Shown here in pieces: positions 13,714 through 21,484 of a stretch of 64,000 bases of DNA (position 1 is its first letter; each line of letters starts with the position of its first letter). The translations under genes were made by a program, and so were the position numbers. This stretch comes from Streptomyces globosus (GTDB taxonomy: Bacteria; Actinomycetota; Actinomycetes; Streptomycetales; Streptomycetaceae): the NCBI RefSeq assembly GCF_003325375.1, contig NZ_CP030862.1, positions 685,501 to 749,500 on the forward strand, read 5' to 3'. The notes below the pieces were generated by a model that saw only the letters and a list, made by a program, of their open reading frames with translations, was not told the origin of the DNA and searched no databases.

Positions 13714-15318
13714 TCACACGGCGGGCTCCGGGGCGAGTTCGGCGAGCATCGCCGCGCGCAGCCGCAGGGTGGCCGTCAGCCGCTGGAAGGCCTCGGCCCA
13801 GTACGCGCCCGCACCCGCGGTCCCACCGGGGTCCGCCGCCGGCTGCGCGGCCGCGGTCAGCGCCTCCAGCCGGTCGGCCTCGGCGGGGTCGAGGCAGCGC
13901 TCGGCCAGCCCCATCACCCCGCTGAAGCTCCACGGGTAGCCGCCCGCCTCCCGCGCCGCGTCGAGCGCGTCGACCACGGCCCGGCCGAGCGGCCCGGCCC
14001 ACGGCACGGTGCACGCCCCGAGCAGCTGGAACGCCTCGGACAGCCCGTGCGCACCGACGAACCGGGCCACCCAGCCGGCCCGTTCCCCCTCGGGCAGGAC
14101 CGACAGCAGCCGGGCCCGCTCGGCGAGCGAGGCCGTGCCCGGCGCGGTCGCGGTCGGGGCCGCCGGAGAGCCGAGCAGCGCCGCCGCCCACTCCGGGTCC
14201 CGCTGCCGCACCGCCGCCCGGCACCACGCCGCGTGCAGCTCCTCGGCCCAGCCCTCTCCCCCGGGCATCGGCAGGGCCACGACCGCGGCGGCGTCCAGCC
14301 CCCCGAAGCGGTCCCGCCAGCAGGACAGCGGCGCCGCCTCCACCAGCTGGCCCAGCCACCAGGAGCGCTCGCCGCGCCCGGCGGGCGGCCGTTCGGCGAC
14401 CCCGTCGCGCAGCATGCCCGCGTCGCACCCGGCCGGCGGGGCCACGCCGTCCGGCCCGACGCAGGCGAGCGCCCGCCGGGCCATCCGCCCGGCCAGCGCG
14501 GACTGCGGCAGCGCCGACAGCAGCTCGGCGGCGGTCGCCCGCACGTTCCGGCTCCGGTCGTCCAGGGCGGCTTCCAGGAACGGCTCGTCCCCGGCGGACA
14601 GCCCGACCCGCAGCGAGTCGAGGAACATCAGCCGGTCCTCGGCGCGCTCGGCGGCCCAGGTGGATGCCAGCAGCCGCACCGCAGCCGCCGGATCGCGGGC
14701 CCGTACCGCGCCCAGCAGGCCCGCCCGCTCCGCGAACAGCCCCTCCTGCCACAGCTGCCGCACCGCTGCGGCGTCCTCCGGGTCGGGCAGCCCCCCGCCC
14801 GCCCCGGCGCGCAGCGCGAACCGCCAGTCGGGGTTGAGCCCCGCCAGCCACATCCCGCGCGGTCCGGCCAGGGCCAGGGCCTGCGGGCGCAGGTCGCTGC
14901 GGGCCCGGGCCGCGTCGAGCAGCGCCGGCAGCAGCGCAGCGGGCGCCCGGTAGCCGTGCCGGCCGGCGGCCGCCAGCCACTGCGGCAGCAGTTCCGCCAG
15001 GTCCGGCGCGGCCCCCCGCCGCCCGGACCCGGCGCCCGCCCCGGCGCGGCCGGCCAGCAGCTGGGCGAGCCGCCGGCGGGCGGGCTCCGGCGGCTCCGGC
15101 CGCGGGTCCGCCGGTGCGGGCCGCGGCCGGGGCGCCGCCTCGGCGGGCCGAAGCCCGGCGCGGCGGCGCAGCGTGTGCACGGCCGCGGCGTCGAGCAGCT
15201 CCCGCGGACTGCCGCGGCGGCGCCCGGTGCCGAGCAGCGCCGCCCCGACCAGCTCCCCCCAGTCCCCCCGGTCCCCACAGCCCTCCCCGTGTCGCTCCTC
15301 CCCGGCCGCGGCGGTCAT
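13714..15318 (-). CDS. DUF5691 family protein
   Basis: A 534-residue Ala/Leu/Arg-rich, largely helical soluble protein. The opening W-G-E-L-V-G-A-A-L-L-G-T-G-R-R and the repeated helical pairs (for example FLEAALDDRSRNVRATAAEL, HEAT-like) match DUF5691 proteins as I remember them. No catalytic motif was found. It follows the SWIM-family gene on the same strand after 199 bases containing two hairpins. In Streptomyces this family sits with SWIM, MoxR, DUF5682 and vWA genes, as here; the helical-repeat build suggests a scaffold or adaptor. Confidence 0.8.
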   Translation of the reverse strand: MTAAAGEERHGEGCGDRGDWGELVGAALLGTGRRRGSPRELLDAAAVHTLRRRAGLRPAEAAPRPRPAPADPRPEPPEPARRRLAQLLAGRAGAGAGSGRRGAAPDLAELLPQWLAAAGRHGYRAPAALLPALLDAARARSDLRPQALALAGPRGMWLAGLNPDWRFALRAGAGGGLPDPEDAAAVRQLWQEGLFAERAGLLGAVRARDPAAAVRLLASTWAAERAEDRLMFLDSLRVGLSAGDEPFLEAALDDRSRNVRATAAELLSALPQSALAGRMARRALACVGPDGVAPPAGCDAGMLRDGVAERPPAGRGERSWWLGQLVEAAPLSCWRDRFGGLDAAAVVALPMPGGEGWAEELHAAWCRAAVRQRDPEWAAALLGSPAAPTATAPGTASLAERARLLSVLPEGERAGWVARFVGAHGLSEAFQLLGACTVPWAGPLGRAVVDALDAAREAGGYPWSFSGVMGLAERCLDPAEADRLEALTAAAQPAADPGGTAGAGAYWAEAFQRLTATLRLRAAMLAELAPEPAV

Positions 15319-15517: not shown

Positions 15518-16642
15518 TCAGCCGGTCAGGGCGACCGGCTCCGGGCAGCCCTGCTCCCAGGCCGTGAGCGGTGTGAAGCCGCGGTGGCCGCACTCGCCGA
15601 AGACCGTGACCGGCGCGCCGCCCGACAGGGCGGCCAGCTGCCACAGCCCGGCCGGCGGCCGGCCCCCGCCGGAGGCGACCGGCAGGGCGCCGCCGCCTTC
15701 GGCGTCGGCCAGCTGCCAGCCCCGATCGCCCGGTACCGGGACCACGGGGCCCAGCACGACCGGCCAGGACTCCAGCCACGGGTCCTCCCGCAGCGCCGCC
15801 CCGTACGCGTCGAGTGCCGCCCCGGTGCCGACCCCCTCCGGGGCCTGCCCGCACGGCGCCCCCGCGCCGTGCCCCTCCACGAGGTCCGCGCGCAGTCCCG
15901 CCGTTCCGGGGCGGAAGCGGGCCTCCGCCTCCACCACCCGTCCGACCGGCAGCGCGAGCCGCGGCGGCCGCCCCGGCGGACCGAAGTCCAGTACCAGGGC
16001 CGGGCGTCCGCTCCCCGTCCCGCGCAGCCATGTCCGGCGGGTGGTGAGCCGGCCGTCCGGCGACACCGAGTCGTACTGGGCCAGCACCAGCCAGCGGTCC
16101 CGTACGGCCTCCCCCTCCGCGCCGGTGTCCGGGAGCCCCACCCTGCTCCGTACCGTCGCGGCGAGCGGCTGCGGCAGGCCTGCCAGACCGAGCCATCCCC
16201 GGTTCAGCAGGTGCAGCAGCGCGCCCTCCTCCAGCATCCGGGCGGGCCAGCCGGGCCCGCAACCGGGTATCGCCCCCAACTCCCTCACCCGGGCGGCCAG
16301 TCCGGGCGCCTGGGCGTCGACCATGCGCGCCGCGGCCTCCTCCCAGAACGCGGCTCCCGCCTGCTCCTGGCCGGCCAGCCCCTCGCGGACCAGGTCGGCC
16401 AGGCGCTGCTCCAACTCGGCGACGCCGGCGCAGATCCGGGCCGCCCTCCGCTCGGCCCGGCGCCGCGCCGCCTCCGGGTCTGCGGGTGCGGCCCGCGCCC
16501 CCGCCGCCCGACCGGAAGCGGAACCTCCGGTCAGGGTCTGCGGACCTGCCTCCCCCCGTCCCGGTTCGGGCGCCTCCGGCGGGGCGCCGCGAGCGCGGCA
16601 CGGCCCTTGCTCCACGGTGTGGCGGACCTGTTGGTCAGTCAT
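15518..16642 (-). CDS. SWIM zinc-finger family protein lacking its SWIM domain
   Basis: A 374-residue protein from ATG 16642. From about residue 45 (P-A-D-P-E-A-A-R-R-R-A-E-R-R-A-A-R) through A-G-V-A-E-L-E-Q-R-L-A-D-L, MVDAQAPGLAARVRELGAI and the C-terminal W-Q-L-A-A-L-S-G-G-A-P-V-T-V-F-G-E it follows the Streptomyces SWIM-family proteins linked to MoxR/vWA clusters. Those normally start with ~100 residues holding C-x-C-P-S-x-K-x-P-C-K-H; here the N-terminus is a short Pro/Glu/Gly-rich stretch with no such cysteines, in this or other frames. The promoter box upstream implies a leaderless transcript beginning at this ATG. Confidence 0.82.
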   Translation of the reverse strand: MTDQQVRHTVEQGPCRARGAPPEAPEPGRGEAGPQTLTGGSASGRAAGARAAPADPEAARRRAERRAARICAGVAELEQRLADLVREGLAGQEQAGAAFWEEAAARMVDAQAPGLAARVRELGAIPGCGPGWPARMLEEGALLHLLNRGWLGLAGLPQPLAATVRSRVGLPDTGAEGEAVRDRWLVLAQYDSVSPDGRLTTRRTWLRGTGSGRPALVLDFGPPGRPPRLALPVGRVVEAEARFRPGTAGLRADLVEGHGAGAPCGQAPEGVGTGAALDAYGAALREDPWLESWPVVLGPVVPVPGDRGWQLADAEGGGALPVASGGGRPPAGLWQLAALSGGAPVTVFGECGHRGFTPLTAWEQGCPEPVALTG

Positions 16643-16776
16643 GGGAACCACCGTAGGGACCGGCACTGACAATCGGCCTGACCTGCAACAACCGTGCGCG
16701 GGCGGCTCGTTGTCAGTGGCGTGGTGCACCGTGGGGGCAGCAGTCGGGAACGGCTGCGGAGCATCGGAGGGGGACG
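16643..16776. promoter_or_regulatory. Divergent DNA-damage-type promoter region (TTGTCAGTG boxes)
   Basis: Two perfect copies of TTGTCAGTG face away from each other: minus strand 16672-16664 and plus strand 16710-16718. On the minus strand the box is followed after exactly 8 bases by TACGGT (16655-16650), matching the RecA-independent/PafBC promoter pattern TTGTCRGTG-N8-TANNNT; 7 bases later comes the ATG of the SWIM-family gene. On the plus strand the N8 spacing leads to CACCGT, one base off TANNNT, about 45 bases before the MoxR ATG. The boxes are seen; the regulator is inferred from known actinobacterial promoters. Confidence 0.7.
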
Positions 16777-17883
16777 ATGGACACGCAGGGGAACGGCACC
16801 GGCGCCCAGGCGCTGCGACCGCACGCCGAGGACGCCTTCGCACACGAACTGAAAGCCCTGTCCGCCGCCGACGACCGGCCCCGCCCGCCCCGCTGGAAGC
16901 TCTCCCCGTGGGCCGTCGCCACCTACCTCCTCGGCGGCACCCTCGCCGACGGCACGGCCGTCACTCCGAAGTACGTCGGCCCGCGCCGCATCGTCGAAGT
17001 CGCCGTCAGCACCCTCGCCACCGACCGCGCGCTGCTCCTGCTCGGCGTCCCCGGCACCGCCAAGACCTGGGTGTCCGAGCACCTCGCGGCCGCCGTCAGC
17101 GGGGACTCCACCCTGCTCGTCCAGGGCACCGCCGGGACGCCCGAGGAGGCCGTCCGCTACGGCTGGGACTACGCCCGACTCCTCGCCCGCGGCCCCGGCC
17201 GCGAAGCCCTCGTCCCCAGCCCGGTCATGCGGGCGATGGCCGAGGGGGCGACCGTCCGCGTCGAGGAGCTGACCCGCATCCCGGCCGACGTCCAGGACGC
17301 GCTCATCACCATCCTGTCCGAGAAGACCCTGCCCATACCGGAGCTGGGCCAGGAGGTGCAGGCCGTCCGCGGCTTCAACCTCATCGCCACCGCCAACGAC
17401 CGCGACCGCGGGGTCAACGACCTCTCCAGCGCGCTGCGCCGCCGCTTCAACACCGTCGTGCTGCCGCTGCCCGCCACCGCCGACGCCGAGGTCGACATCG
17501 TCGCCCGGCGCGTCGACCAGCTGGGCCGCACCCTCGACCTGCCGCCGGCGCCCGACGCGCTGGCGGAGATACGCCGCGTCGTCACCGTCTTCCGCGAGCT
17601 GCGCGAGGGTGTCACCGGCGACGGCCGCACCAGGGTGAAGACCCCGAGCGGCACCCTGTCCACCGCCGAGGCCATCTCCGTCGTCACCCACGGCCTGGCG
17701 CTCGCCGCGCACTTCGGCGACGGCGTGCTGCGCCCGTCCGACGTGGCCGCCGGGATTCTCGGCGCGGTCGTCCGGGACCCGGCCGCCGACCGGGTCGTCT
17801 GGCAGGAGTACCTGGAGGCCGTGGTCCGCGAGCGGGACGGCTGGCAGGACTTCTACCGGGCCTGCCGGGAGGTGGCGCCATGA
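16777..17883 (+). CDS. MoxR-family AAA+ ATPase
   Basis: A 368-residue AAA+ protein: Walker A GVPGTAKT (residues 90-97), Walker B V-R-V-E-E-L, sensor 1 F-N-L-I-A-T-A-N-D-R-D, arginine finger region L-S-S-A-L-R-R-R-F-N, and a C-terminal lid. MoxR ATPases act as chaperones or remodelers, usually with a vWA partner that is encoded two genes downstream here. ATG follows GGAGGGGG. The stop overlaps the DUF5682 start (ATGA), the first link of a translationally coupled three-gene operon. Confidence 0.95.
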   Translation: MDTQGNGTGAQALRPHAEDAFAHELKALSAADDRPRPPRWKLSPWAVATYLLGGTLADGTAVTPKYVGPRRIVEVAVSTLATDRALLLLGVPGTAKTWVSEHLAAAVSGDSTLLVQGTAGTPEEAVRYGWDYARLLARGPGREALVPSPVMRAMAEGATVRVEELTRIPADVQDALITILSEKTLPIPELGQEVQAVRGFNLIATANDRDRGVNDLSSALRRRFNTVVLPLPATADAEVDIVARRVDQLGRTLDLPPAPDALAEIRRVVTVFRELREGVTGDGRTRVKTPSGTLSTAEAISVVTHGLALAAHFGDGVLRPSDVAAGILGAVVRDPAADRVVWQEYLEAVVRERDGWQDFYRACREVAP

Positions 17884-20198
17884 GCCCGGCGGCACCGCCC
17901 GCCCGCGGCGGGCCGCTGCTGCTGGGCGTCCGCCACCACGGCCCCGGGTCGGCGCGCGCGGTCCGGGCCGCCCTGGAGGCCGCCCGGCCGGCGGCCGTCC
18001 TGGTCGAGGGCCCTCCCGAGGGCGACGCGCTGCTGCCGCTCGCCGCCGACCCGGGGATGCGGCCGCCCGTGGCGCTGCTCTCGCACGCCGCGGACGACCC
18101 CGGCCGGGCCGTGTTCTGGCCGCTGGCCGCGTTCTCCCCGGAGTGGGCCGCCATCCGCTGGGCGCAGGAGCAGCAGCCGCCCGTCCCCGTACGGTTCATC
18201 GACCTGCCCGCCGCCCACACCCTCGCCGCCTCGGAGGCCGGGGAGCCGGCGGGCGGCACCGCGCGGCCCGACCCGCTGGGCGCGCTCGCCGCGGCCGCCG
18301 GGTACGAGGACGCCGAGCGCTGGTGGGAGGACACCGTCGAGCACCGGGGAGGGCCGGGCGAGGCCACCGCCGACCCCCTGGCCGTGTTCGAGGCGCTCGG
18401 CGACGCCATGGAGGCCGTGCGCGGGGCCGGCCCGGAGGACGCCTCGGGCACGATCGGCGGCCGCCCCCGCGACCTGGTCCGCGAGGCCCACATGCGGCAG
18501 CGGATCCGGGCCGCCCGCCGCGAGTTCGGCGACGGCTGCGCGGTCGTGTGCGGCGCCTGGCACGTCCCGGCGCTGCGCGCCGCGACCACGGCCGCCGCCG
18601 ACCGGCGGCTGCTGGCCGGCCTGCCCAGGACCAGGGTGGAGACGGCCTGGGTGCCCTGGACGCACCGGCGGCTCGCCCGCGCGGGCGGCTACGGCGCCGG
18701 AGTCGCCGCGCCCGGCTGGTACGCCCACCTGGCCGCCGCCCCCGACCGGCCGGTCGAGCGGTGGATGGCCCGGGCGGCCGCGCTGCTCCGGCAGGAGGAC
18801 CTGCCGGTCTCCCCGGCGCACGTGATCGAGGCGGTCCGGCTCGCCGACACCCTCGCCGCGGTGCGCGGCCGGCCCGCGCCCGGCCTCGCCGAGACGCTGG
18901 ACGCCGTCCGGGCGGTGATGTGCGACGGCTCCGAGGTGCCGCTCGCGCTCGTCGAGGACCGCCTGGTCGTCGGGGACGTCCTCGGCCGGGTCCCCGACGG
19001 CGCGCCCGCGGTGCCGCTGCAGCGGGACCTCGTCCGGCAGCAGCGCTCGCTGCGGCTGAAGGCCGAGCCGCAGGAGCGGGAGCTGGAGCTCGACCTGCGG
19101 GGCCCGACGGACGCGGCGCGGTCGCTGCTGCTGCACCGGCTGCGGCTGCTCGGCATCGGCTGGGGCCGGCTGGCGGCCTCGCGGCCCGGCACCGGCACGT
19201 TCCGCGAGACGTGGCGGCTGCGCTGGGATCCGGAGCTGGCGGTGCGGGTGGCCGAGGCCGGGATCTGGGGCACCACCGTCCTCGCCGCGGCCGGCGCCAA
19301 GGCCGCGGCGGACGCGGCGGCCGCCCGGGAACTCGCCGAGGTGACCGCGCTGGCGGAGCGGTGCCTGCTGGCCGGCCTGTCCGAGGCGCTGCCCCGGGTG
19401 CTGCGGGCCCTCGCCGACCTGGCGGCCCTCGACACCGACGCGGCCCGGCTGGCGCAGGCCCTGCCCGCGCTGGCCCGGGCCCTGCGGTACGGGGACGTCC
19501 GGGGCACCGCCGCCCCGGCCCTCCGCGCGGTGGCGCGCGGACTGGCCGAGCGGATCTGCGTGGCCCTGCCGCCCGCCTGCGCCGCCGGCCTCGACACCGA
19601 GGCGGCGGCCGGGATGCGCGGGCACGTGGAGGCCGTCCACCGGGCGGTCGGCCTGCTGGACGACGAGGAGCTCCAGGGGCGCTGGGCGGCGGTCCTCGCC
19701 GCGCTCGGCGCCCGGGACGGCGTGCCCGGGGCGATACGGGGGCGGGCGGTGCGGCTGCTGCTCGACGAGGGGCGGCTGCCCGCGCCGGAGGCGGCGCGGC
19801 TGATGGGGCTGGCGCTGTCGCCGGCGGCCGCCCCCGCGGACGCGGCCGGCTGGATCGACGGCTTCGCCGGAGCCGGCGCCGGCGGCGGCACGCTGCTCGT
19901 CCACGACGACCGGCTGTTCGGCCTCGTCGACTCCTGGCTCGCCGCGGTGCCGGCGGACGCGTTCACCGACGTACTGCCGCTGCTGCGCAGGACGTTCGGC
20001 GCGTACGAGCCGGGCGTGCGGCGGACGCTCGGCGAACTGGCCCGGCGCGGCCCCGGCGCCCGGCGCGCGGCGGCCGGCGCCGGAGCCCCCGAGGGCTTCG
20101 CCGCGGAGCCGGACGCGGCCCGCGCCGCCGCCGCCGCAGACCTGGCCCGGCTGCTGCTGGAGGCCGCCGACCGGAGGACGGCCGGGGGACGGTGCTGA
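17880..20198 (+). CDS. DUF5682 protein with TraB/TIKI/EreA-like signature
   Basis: A 772-residue protein. The N-terminus reads G-V-R-H-H-G-P-G-S (H19/H20) followed by a helix and A-A-V-L-V-E-G-P. This is the same arrangement as the G-T-x-H-x-x-x-S ... P-D-x-V-x-V-E motif of TraB/TIKI/ChaN/EreA proteins. A second matching motif, C-G-A-W-H-V-P-A-L (H228), follows. That family includes metal-dependent hydrolases, so an enzymatic role is plausible. The rest is Ala/Leu/Arg-rich helices. Overlaps MoxR by ATGA and abuts vWA by TGATG. The fold match is by motif only. Confidence 0.82.
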   Translation: MSPAAPPARGGPLLLGVRHHGPGSARAVRAALEAARPAAVLVEGPPEGDALLPLAADPGMRPPVALLSHAADDPGRAVFWPLAAFSPEWAAIRWAQEQQPPVPVRFIDLPAAHTLAASEAGEPAGGTARPDPLGALAAAAGYEDAERWWEDTVEHRGGPGEATADPLAVFEALGDAMEAVRGAGPEDASGTIGGRPRDLVREAHMRQRIRAARREFGDGCAVVCGAWHVPALRAATTAAADRRLLAGLPRTRVETAWVPWTHRRLARAGGYGAGVAAPGWYAHLAAAPDRPVERWMARAAALLRQEDLPVSPAHVIEAVRLADTLAAVRGRPAPGLAETLDAVRAVMCDGSEVPLALVEDRLVVGDVLGRVPDGAPAVPLQRDLVRQQRSLRLKAEPQERELELDLRGPTDAARSLLLHRLRLLGIGWGRLAASRPGTGTFRETWRLRWDPELAVRVAEAGIWGTTVLAAAGAKAAADAAAARELAEVTALAERCLLAGLSEALPRVLRALADLAALDTDAARLAQALPALARALRYGDVRGTAAPALRAVARGLAERICVALPPACAAGLDTEAAAGMRGHVEAVHRAVGLLDDEELQGRWAAVLAALGARDGVPGAIRGRAVRLLLDEGRLPAPEAARLMGLALSPAAAPADAAGWIDGFAGAGAGGGTLLVHDDRLFGLVDSWLAAVPADAFTDVLPLLRRTFGAYEPGVRRTLGELARRGPGARRAAAGAGAPEGFAAEPDAARAAAAADLARLLLEAADRRTAGGRC

Positions 20199-20305
20199 TG
20201 AAGGGGAGGAGTGGCGCCGCGGGCGGCGGCCGGGGGGACGGTGCGGGTGAGCAGGACGGGACGGCGGGGCGCCGGCCGGGGGACGACGGGGGGACGGTGC
20301 GGATG
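20181..20305. repeat. Triplicated start-site segment of the vWA gene
   Basis: Three imperfect copies of GCCGGGGGACGGTGC-G-GATGA occur at 20181-20201, 20229-20250 and 20288-20305. Each carries the purine-rich ribosome site; copies one and three include an in-frame ATG (20198 and 20303). The duplication makes the true vWA start ambiguous. Confidence 0.65.
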
Positions 20306-21484
20306 AACCGGACGGACGGCGGTGCGGCGGCGGACGCGGAGCGGGTGCGGCGGTGGCGGCTCGTGCTCGGCGGGACCGGCGCCGACGGCACGGGCTGCGT
20401 ACTGGCCGGCCGGGACCGGGCCGTGGACGACGCGCTCGGCGCGCTCTACGACAGCCCCGCCGGCAGCGCCGGAAGCGGCGGCTCCCGCCGGGCGGCGGGG
20501 GAGCGGTCCGCCGGGCTCGGCGGCTCCGCGCCGGCCGTGGCCCGCTGGCTGGGCGACATCCGCCGGTACTTCCCCGCCCCCGTCGTGCAGGTGATGCAGC
20601 GCGACGCCATCGAGCGGCTCGGACTGTCCGCGCTGCTGCTGGAGCCGGAGATGCTGGAGGCCCTCGAACCGGACGTGCACCTGGTCGGCACCCTGCTGTC
20701 GCTGGGCGCGGCGATGCCGGAGACGACCCGGGAGACGGCGCGGGCCGTCGTCCGCGGCGTCGTCCGGCAGCTGGAGGAGCGGCTCGCCTCCCGCACCCGG
20801 GCCGCCGTCACCGGCGCCCTCGACCGCTCGGCCCGCACCGCCCGCCCGCGCCGCGCCGACATCGACTGGGGCCGGACCGTCCGGGCGAACCTGCGGAACT
20901 ACCTGCCCGAGCAGCGCACCGTGGTCCCCGAGCGGCTCGTCGGGTACGGCCGGGCGGCGCGCTCCGTCCGGAAGGAGGTCGTCCTCTGCATCGACCAGTC
21001 CGGCTCCATGGCCCCCTCGGTCGTCTACGCCTCCGTCTTCGGCGCCGTCCTGGCCTCCATGCGGTCGCTCTCCACCCGCGTCGTCGCCTTCGACACCTCC
21101 GTCGCCGACCTGACGGACCTGGTCGACGACCCGGTGGACGTCCTCTTCGCCGCGCAGCTCGGCGGCGGCACCGACATCAACCGGGCCCTGGCCTACTGCC
21201 AGTCCCGGATCACCCGGCCCGCCGACACCGTCGTCGTCCTGATCAGCGACCTCCACGAGGGCGGCATCCGGGGCGAGATGGCCAAGCGGGTCGCGGCGAT
21301 GCGGGCGGCCGGGACCGCGTTCGTCGCGCTGCTCGCCCTGTCCGACGAGGGCGCCCCCGCCCACGACCGGGAGCAGGCGGCGGCCCTCGCCGCGCTCGGC
21401 GTGCCCGCGTTCGCCTGCACGCCCGACCTGTTCCCCGAGGTGATGGCCGCGGCGATCGAGGGGAGGCCGCTGCCCGTGCCCTGA
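20198..21484 (+). CDS. vWA domain protein (MoxR partner)
   Basis: A 428-residue protein if started at ATG 20198, which overlaps the DUF5682 stop; the conserved part begins around E-R-V-R-R-W-R-L-V-L-G-G, so ATG 20303 is equally possible. The C-terminal vWA domain has a complete MIDAS metal site: D266-x-S-x-S (CIDQSGSM), the Thr of G-G-G-T-D-I-N, and the Asp of VVLISDLHEGG. The N-terminal 230 residues are helical with a W-L-G-D-I-R-R-Y-F-P stretch. MoxR-vWA pairs bind and remodel target proteins; DUF5682 between them is the candidate effector. Confidence 0.92.
   Translation: MKGRSGAAGGGRGDGAGEQDGTAGRRPGDDGGTVRMNRTDGGAAADAERVRRWRLVLGGTGADGTGCVLAGRDRAVDDALGALYDSPAGSAGSGGSRRAAGERSAGLGGSAPAVARWLGDIRRYFPAPVVQVMQRDAIERLGLSALLLEPEMLEALEPDVHLVGTLLSLGAAMPETTRETARAVVRGVVRQLEERLASRTRAAVTGALDRSARTARPRRADIDWGRTVRANLRNYLPEQRTVVPERLVGYGRAARSVRKEVVLCIDQSGSMAPSVVYASVFGAVLASMRSLSTRVVAFDTSVADLTDLVDDPVDVLFAAQLGGGTDINRALAYCQSRITRPADTVVVLISDLHEGGIRGEMAKRVAAMRAAGTAFVALLALSDEGAPAHDREQAAALAALGVPAFACTPDLFPEVMAAAIEGRPLPVP

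Follow-up and report, generated by a model that had tools for sequence, protein, structure and literature searches.

Does DNA damage switch on both arms of a divergent gene cluster in Streptomyces globosus? The question is raised by two copies of TTGTCAGTG that diverge and face outward, 37 bases apart, between a SWIM-family gene and a MoxR-type ATPase gene. They lie in the window, by which we mean the whole 64-kb stretch of DNA analyzed here. We consider it likely that RecA-NDp (PafBC-type) promoters form a divergent pair here; they would drive both arms upon damage and are probably coupled.

Two putative outward-facing promoters, one with a variant -10 element

We located the boxes and -10 elements by direct reading and by pattern search. 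The elements between the two arms are as follows.

16650..16655, minus strand: -10 element TACGGT of the SWIM-family arm, N8 after the box, an exact TANNNT
16664..16672, minus strand: box TTGTCAGTG of the SWIM-family arm, of the PafBC/RecA-NDp type
16673..16709, no strand: 37-bp linker between the boxes, with a length that is quantized across the genus
16678..16686, minus strand: accessory element GCAGGTCAG (CTGACCTGC on the plus strand), 5 nt upstream of the SWIM-side box, within the linker
16710..16718, plus strand: box TTGTCAGTG of the MoxR arm, of the PafBC/RecA-NDp type
16727..16732, plus strand: -10 element CACCGT (CANNNT type) of the MoxR arm, N8 after the box and preceded by a conserved GGTG

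The inverted, outward-facing pair had been pointed out in a sequence-only reading of this DNA, and our searches place it at 16672-16664 (minus) and 16710-16718 (plus), far above chance. TTGTCRGTG was found four times in the 64-kb window versus 0.37 expected. The full motif with at most one mismatch was found twice versus 0.01 expected, and none of 100 shuffles reached two. The other two copies of TTGTCRGTG in the window (12850 and 41776) do not form a full motif even when one mismatch is allowed. The same reading described the minus copy as followed by N8 and TACGGT, and the pattern search returned this promoter as an exact match to TTGTCRGTG-N8-TANNNT. On the plus side, the box is exact and N8 is kept, and the -10 element is one base off, with C in place of the first T. 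The assignment to the PafBC-type pattern therefore stood for both boxes, both spacers and the minus -10 element, but not for the plus -10 element, which departs from TANNNT. For this reason, we call the plus side a variant and not a strict member of the RecA-NDp/PafBC type.

We also searched for other regulatory signals. The LexA/SOS box has the motif TCGAAC-N4-GTTCGA, and no such box with three or fewer mismatches was found from 15946 to 18741. Neither an ordinary sigma-70-like promoter (by a strict consensus scan) nor a terminator was found at 16560-16860.

Genes of the two arms

The minus arm carries the SWIM-family gene and the gene downstream of it, and the plus arm begins with the MoxR gene.

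13714..15318, minus strand: DUF5691 gene, downstream in the minus arm (PF18944, E 9e-160)
15518..16642, minus strand: SWIM-family gene, with its ATG (16642) 8 nt after the -10 element; no Pfam family found
16766-16773, plus strand: likely ribosome site GGAGGGGG of the MoxR gene
16777..17883, plus strand: MoxR-type AAA+ ATPase (PF07728, E 7.7e-38)
17880..20198, plus strand: DUF5682 gene (PF18934, E 2e-268)
20303..21484, plus strand: CoxE-like von Willebrand A (VWA) protein, with a start possibly at 20198 (PF05762, E 1.7e-57)

Behind the VWA gene, the plus arm continues with a CoA-ligase gene (succinyl-CoA ligase beta type). As the ATG of the SWIM-family gene stands only 8 nt past the -10 element, its mRNA should be leaderless. 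The S. globosus SWIM-family protein has lost the SWIM zinc finger; its promoter is intact nevertheless. The finger, C-x-CPSR-x-FPCKH, is kept in all 29 relatives that we examined by eye (L013-L041), and a relative from another family gave a Pfam SWIM match. In one further relative (L099, another family), the zinc finger was also absent in the frame read.

For the five proteins, we detected no defense-system families and no PADLOC match. A role for MoxR-VWA pairs as chaperones is the usual guess, and our literature searches found no published role for a SWIM/DUF5691-MoxR/DUF5682/VWA cluster. The genome carries a second MoxR-DUF5682 cluster (G000:C1:3191971-3196058), with a MoxR protein that is 50% identical. 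No box was found in the 1.7-kb stretch examined at this second cluster; in 16 kb of surrounding DNA, a single site with one mismatch lay some 6 kb upstream.

Conservation of the boxes and -10 elements

To follow the two promoters across the genus, we screened 61 genomes, S. globosus included. An orthologous MoxR gene was present in 56 of them, and the remaining genomes had no MoxR match or a paralogue only. Among these 56 loci, the MoxR-side box was exact in 53 and the SWIM-side box in 52; the remaining boxes, 3 and 4, respectively, each had a single mismatch. Upstream of the boxes, the mean over 25 bases was only 0.46 and 0.50 bits.

The one-base departure of the plus -10 element, which the sequence-only reading had noted, is real. 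It is not decay, as the MoxR-side -10 element was CANNNT after GGTG in 53 of 53 exact loci (counted without selecting for it), which makes it a fixed feature. The SWIM-side -10 element was TANNNT in 52 of 52 exact genus loci, and the start codon followed it at 7 to 8 nt in every one of them. The same divergent pair was detected in at least 80 named loci (Streptomyces, 77; Actinacidiphila, 3), with TANNNT on the SWIM side in 80 of 80. The pattern used for these named loci contained CA, and our counts for the plus -10 element rest on the 53 exact genus loci.

Outside the genus, 12 of 13 orthologous loci, from families f3 and f19, were examined to this depth. Here the SWIM-family gene comes first, followed by DUF5691 and MoxR, the last two on the same strand. 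N8, TANNNT and a start 7 to 8 nt further on were present at the SWIM-family gene in 12 of 12 loci, with a box that was exact in 2, had one mismatch in 8 and had two mismatches in 2. A GTGGTGCA-type box, the box of the MoxR arm, stood before DUF5691 and was exact in 8 of the 12 loci, with one mismatch in a ninth. Outside the genus, this box was found only in these nine loci, all of genus g3, and not in the other three of the 12. We therefore read the boxes as separate promoters, each staying with its own arm, rather than as a single operator.

The motif across the genome and the PafBC genes

A genome-wide motif scan had been proposed together with the sequence-only reading as a way to check it. 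We scanned the S. globosus genome (7.5 Mb, three contigs) and obtained 11 exact full motifs, compared to 1 for a reversed-pattern control. The looser pattern TTGTCAGTG-N8-NANNNT gave 21 matches versus 0 in the control. The bare 9-mer TTGTCRGTG gave 156 versus 51, and the box by itself is therefore only threefold enriched. In 16 genus genomes, the exact motif was found 388 times versus 3 for the reversed pattern (summed over rows).

Each of the 11 exact matches in S. globosus was followed, 7 to 63 nt further on, by a plausible reading frame in the correct orientation, the frames being chosen by length and third-position GC. The genes behind them are the SWIM-family gene, recA and genes for TnpB-like, glyoxalase-like, macro-domain and WGR/propeller proteins, an HD phosphohydrolase, an HNH protein, Cas3 and two proteins without a Pfam family. 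The motif preceded recA in 30 of 30 loci examined, S. globosus included, among 60 genomes with a recA match. The distance from the start of the motif to the recA match was 66 nt in 29 loci and 72 nt in 1.

An exact box stands 8 nt before the start of the TnpB-like (IS605 OrfB) gene (L003, G000:C1:2225372), and another lies 21 nt upstream of the Cas3 gene (L011, G000:C3:333763-333785, minus strand). The DNA on the far side of the Cas3 box looks repeat-like and may be a CRISPR array. An exact box also lies upstream of the gene for a WGR/beta-propeller protein (L007, G000:C1:5166048); WGR domains are also present in eukaryotic PARPs. In genus g41, exact motifs number 63 in genome G227 and 119 in genome G247. 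Several of those listed for G227 share an identical spacer, which would fit a promoter borne on a repeat element.

The genome also encodes homologues of the activator. Near PafA we found two WYL genes, in the order pafA, FKBP gene, pafB and pafC, whose products match the PafBC PDB entries 7p5x, 9fnd/9fne and 6sj9 (PafB, E 1.3e-57; PafC, E 3.1e-52). A PafB match (E 1e-10) was present in 187 of 197 genomes of the class, and since PafB is nearly universal there, a presence/absence test of PafBC against the motif had no power. Among the 10 genomes without PafB, several of them incomplete and together too few to weigh, G103 and G153 (completeness of at least 98%) are without the motif, while the motif is borne by G090 (five copies) and by G133, G140 and G143 (one each).

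Spacing between the boxes

Across the genus, the gap between the boxes clusters at 25 to 28, 36 to 39, 47 to 51, 60 to 62 and 71 to 72 bp. In none of 392 genus genomes did we find an exact pair at this locus with a gap of 29 to 35, 43 to 46, 52 to 59, 63 to 70 or 73 bp. Exact pairs 12 to 42 bp apart occurred in 201 of the 392 genomes, compared to 0 for the reversed control. Among the matches listed (75 pairs from 71 of the 201 genomes), 68 were of the MoxR/SWIM type, as judged from the linker sequence and not from gene context. Their gaps were 25 to 28 bp (8 pairs) and 36 to 38 bp (60 pairs). Gaps of 39 to 42 bp were absent from these 68 listed pairs, and a single gap of 39 bp occurred in the named set.

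For gaps of 43 to 73 bp, we required GNNNGGTGCA after the second box, which admits the MoxR type only. This pattern was found in 82 genomes, at 47 to 51 (46), 60 to 62 (33) and 71 to 72 (3) bp; applied to gaps of 28 to 35 bp, it was found in one genome, at 28. The named set of at least 80 loci, in which gaps of 25 to 54 bp were allowed, gave 27 (2), 36 to 38 (59), 39 (1), 48 to 49 (17) and 51 (1) bp; it overlaps the genus genomes at least in part (three shared linkers among those compared).

Of the 49 possible lengths in the range 25 to 73 bp, 31 did not occur in the rows examined, and the best period of the gap lengths was 11.4 to 11.9 bp. Random drawing of an equal number of distinct lengths never gave so regular a set in 20,000 trials; the draws assume independent lengths, which these are not, and the genomes are related. 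A period of about 11.5 bp exceeds the 10.5 bp of relaxed B-DNA; values near 11 are known for the helical repeat in vivo. Gaps outside the classes, of 84, 92, 164 or 595 to 719 bp, were found in 9 of 50 genomes, and coupling is therefore not essential everywhere.

The linkers also carry the accessory element GCAGGTCAG. GGTC[AG] was present 11 to 13 bp upstream of a box in 97 of 117 distinct linkers, versus a shuffled mean of 2.9 and a largest shuffled value of 8. It stood by the MoxR box in 60 linkers, by the SWIM box in 36 and by both in 1. In 10 of the 117 it lay one turn further out, and in another 10 it was found neither near either box nor one turn away. Its distance steps as well, from 11-12 to 23-24. 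Together, the quantized gaps and the placement of the accessory element suggest face-of-helix coupling. The element resembles the box itself (nnGTCAGnG) and, by this likeness, may serve PafBC as an additional, weak site or else be bound by another protein.

Other species of the genus have a further divergent pair of these boxes at a different locus, with gaps of 29 to 31 and 42 bp (L122-L127; seven listed pairs). On one side it reads into a gene that weakly matches LRR, and on the other toward a DUF6745 gene some 0.4 kb away (Pfam, L123 only).

Alternative explanations

The inverted boxes might instead form a single palindromic operator to which one dimeric regulator binds. They form a perfect 9-bp inverted repeat, and its halves stand in a preferred helical phase. 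However, each half has its own -10 element at N8, the gap varies from 25 to more than 700 bp, the boxes stand in tandem before separate genes in other genera, and the same box stands singly before recA. We regard such an operator as very improbable. Somewhat less improbable, yet still unlikely in our judgment, is that the minus side alone is a damage promoter and that the plus box serves another factor or polymerase form. This would explain why the plus side carries CANNNT after GGTG in all 53 exact loci and why its spacer holds 1.67 bits, versus 0.89 bits on the SWIM side. On the other hand, the box and the spacing are identical on the plus side. The most critical bases of a -10 element are the A at -11 and the T at -7, and both are kept there. 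The strict consensus scan, moreover, detected no sigma-70-like promoter at 16560-16860.

The quantized spacing could also be an accident of descent, with a few founding lengths and small changes around them, an explanation that we hold to be doubtful. The gap classes partly follow clades. Against this, parsimony on MoxR gene trees requires at least 11 changes of class (38 classed genomes of a 50-genome tree) or at least 18 (a 120-row tree); the trees rest on one gene and have many weak forks (17 of 47 inner forks open on the 50-genome tree), and these counts may be inflated. Furthermore, the 31 empty lengths and the stepping of the accessory element argue against an accident of descent. Finally, the conserved plus-side sequence could be the start of a small protein (VAWC...), its conservation being that of a coding region. 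GTG GCG TGG TGC does read V-A-W-C, and in genus g3 the frame is open into DUF5691. Among 53 genus sequences, however, the peptide is not conserved past its first few residues and is often frameshifted or ends early. We consider it extremely unlikely and rejected a small conserved peptide from the plus box.

Proposed mechanism

We return to the divergent pair of PafBC-type promoters. The motifs and how they are conserved, the PafBC genes, the leaderless arrangement and the quantized gaps are observations, whereas PafBC binding, induction by damage and physical coupling are inferred. In our model, single-stranded DNA accumulating after damage would lead the WYL activator PafBC to bind TTGTCAGTG at each promoter. 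PafBC would then let the housekeeping RNA polymerase use the -10 element by sigma adaptation, a mechanism that we borrow from mycobacteria. The SWIM-family protein and DUF5691 would be encoded by a leaderless mRNA from the minus promoter, and MoxR, DUF5682 and the VWA protein by an mRNA with a leader from the plus promoter. With both arms firing, the entire cluster would be switched on together; most likely, then, the PafBC damage response activates it as one unit. A cluster for which we found no role in print would thereby gain a likely trigger, DNA damage.

Relative to one another, the boxes and a single accessory GCAGGTCAG site next to either box would keep a constant face of the helix. More tentatively, and with rather more doubt than belief, we propose a phase-locked switch of three sites, in which two divergent PafBC-RNA polymerase complexes share one accessory site on a set face. 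If this is true, both arms fire as one unit, and selection keeps whole helical turns while the gap drifts from 25 to 72 bp. The damage response of Streptomyces would then have a cooperative mode, a behavior of which we found no account for mycobacterial PafBC. The quantized spacing amounts to a natural experiment in several hundred genomes, and it makes the coupling of divergent activator-polymerase complexes directly testable.

Relation to known systems

The RecA-NDp promoter, known from recA of S. rimosus and M. tuberculosis and from SCO6735, has the same TTGTCRGTG-N8-TANNNT just upstream of the gene in Actinobacteria. The UV-inducible recA of S. rimosus has the promoter TTGTCAGTGGC-N6-TAGggT (cited in PMC2375139), and the macro-domain gene SCO6735 of S. 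coelicolor is UV induced from a promoter of the RecA-NDp type (PMC5087735). In S. globosus, too, recA and a macro-domain gene carry the motif. The locus described here differs from these in having two diverging copies, one with CANNNT as its -10 element, and an accessory GCAGGTCAG beside one of them. The promoter type is therefore already known. The divergent layout was not found in our literature searches, but these genes may be covered by the list of 67 S. coelicolor motif genes that PMC2375139 gives in its supplement.

The regulon of mycobacterial PafBC has the same motif, and homologues of PafB and PafC are encoded here. In M. smegmatis without pafBC, MoxR1 and MoxR2 are among the proteins at lower levels (PMC5656591); a word search of that paper did not return SWIM. 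For S. venezuelae, the mycobacterial motif had seemed, from an initial search, not to be conserved (PMC9380542, 2022). The conservation that we observed in Streptomyces before recA and this cluster bears on that doubt and, being genus-wide, argues otherwise as far as a general statement is concerned.

The MoxR-vWA ternary conflict systems (eLife 2020, PMC7159879) have the pairing of a MoxR AAA+ ATPase with a vWA protein in common with our cluster. Their third component is a VMAP, iSTAND, FtsH or beta-propeller protein. The neighbors here are DUF5682, DUF5691 and the SWIM-family protein, and the word SWIM is absent from the main text of that report. The MoxR protein of S. globosus scored 23.2 bits for bpMoxR, under the cutoff of 27. 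DUF5682 is also present in E. coli, among our control genomes. The cluster is presumably related to the E. coli genes yehL, yehM, yehP and yehQ.
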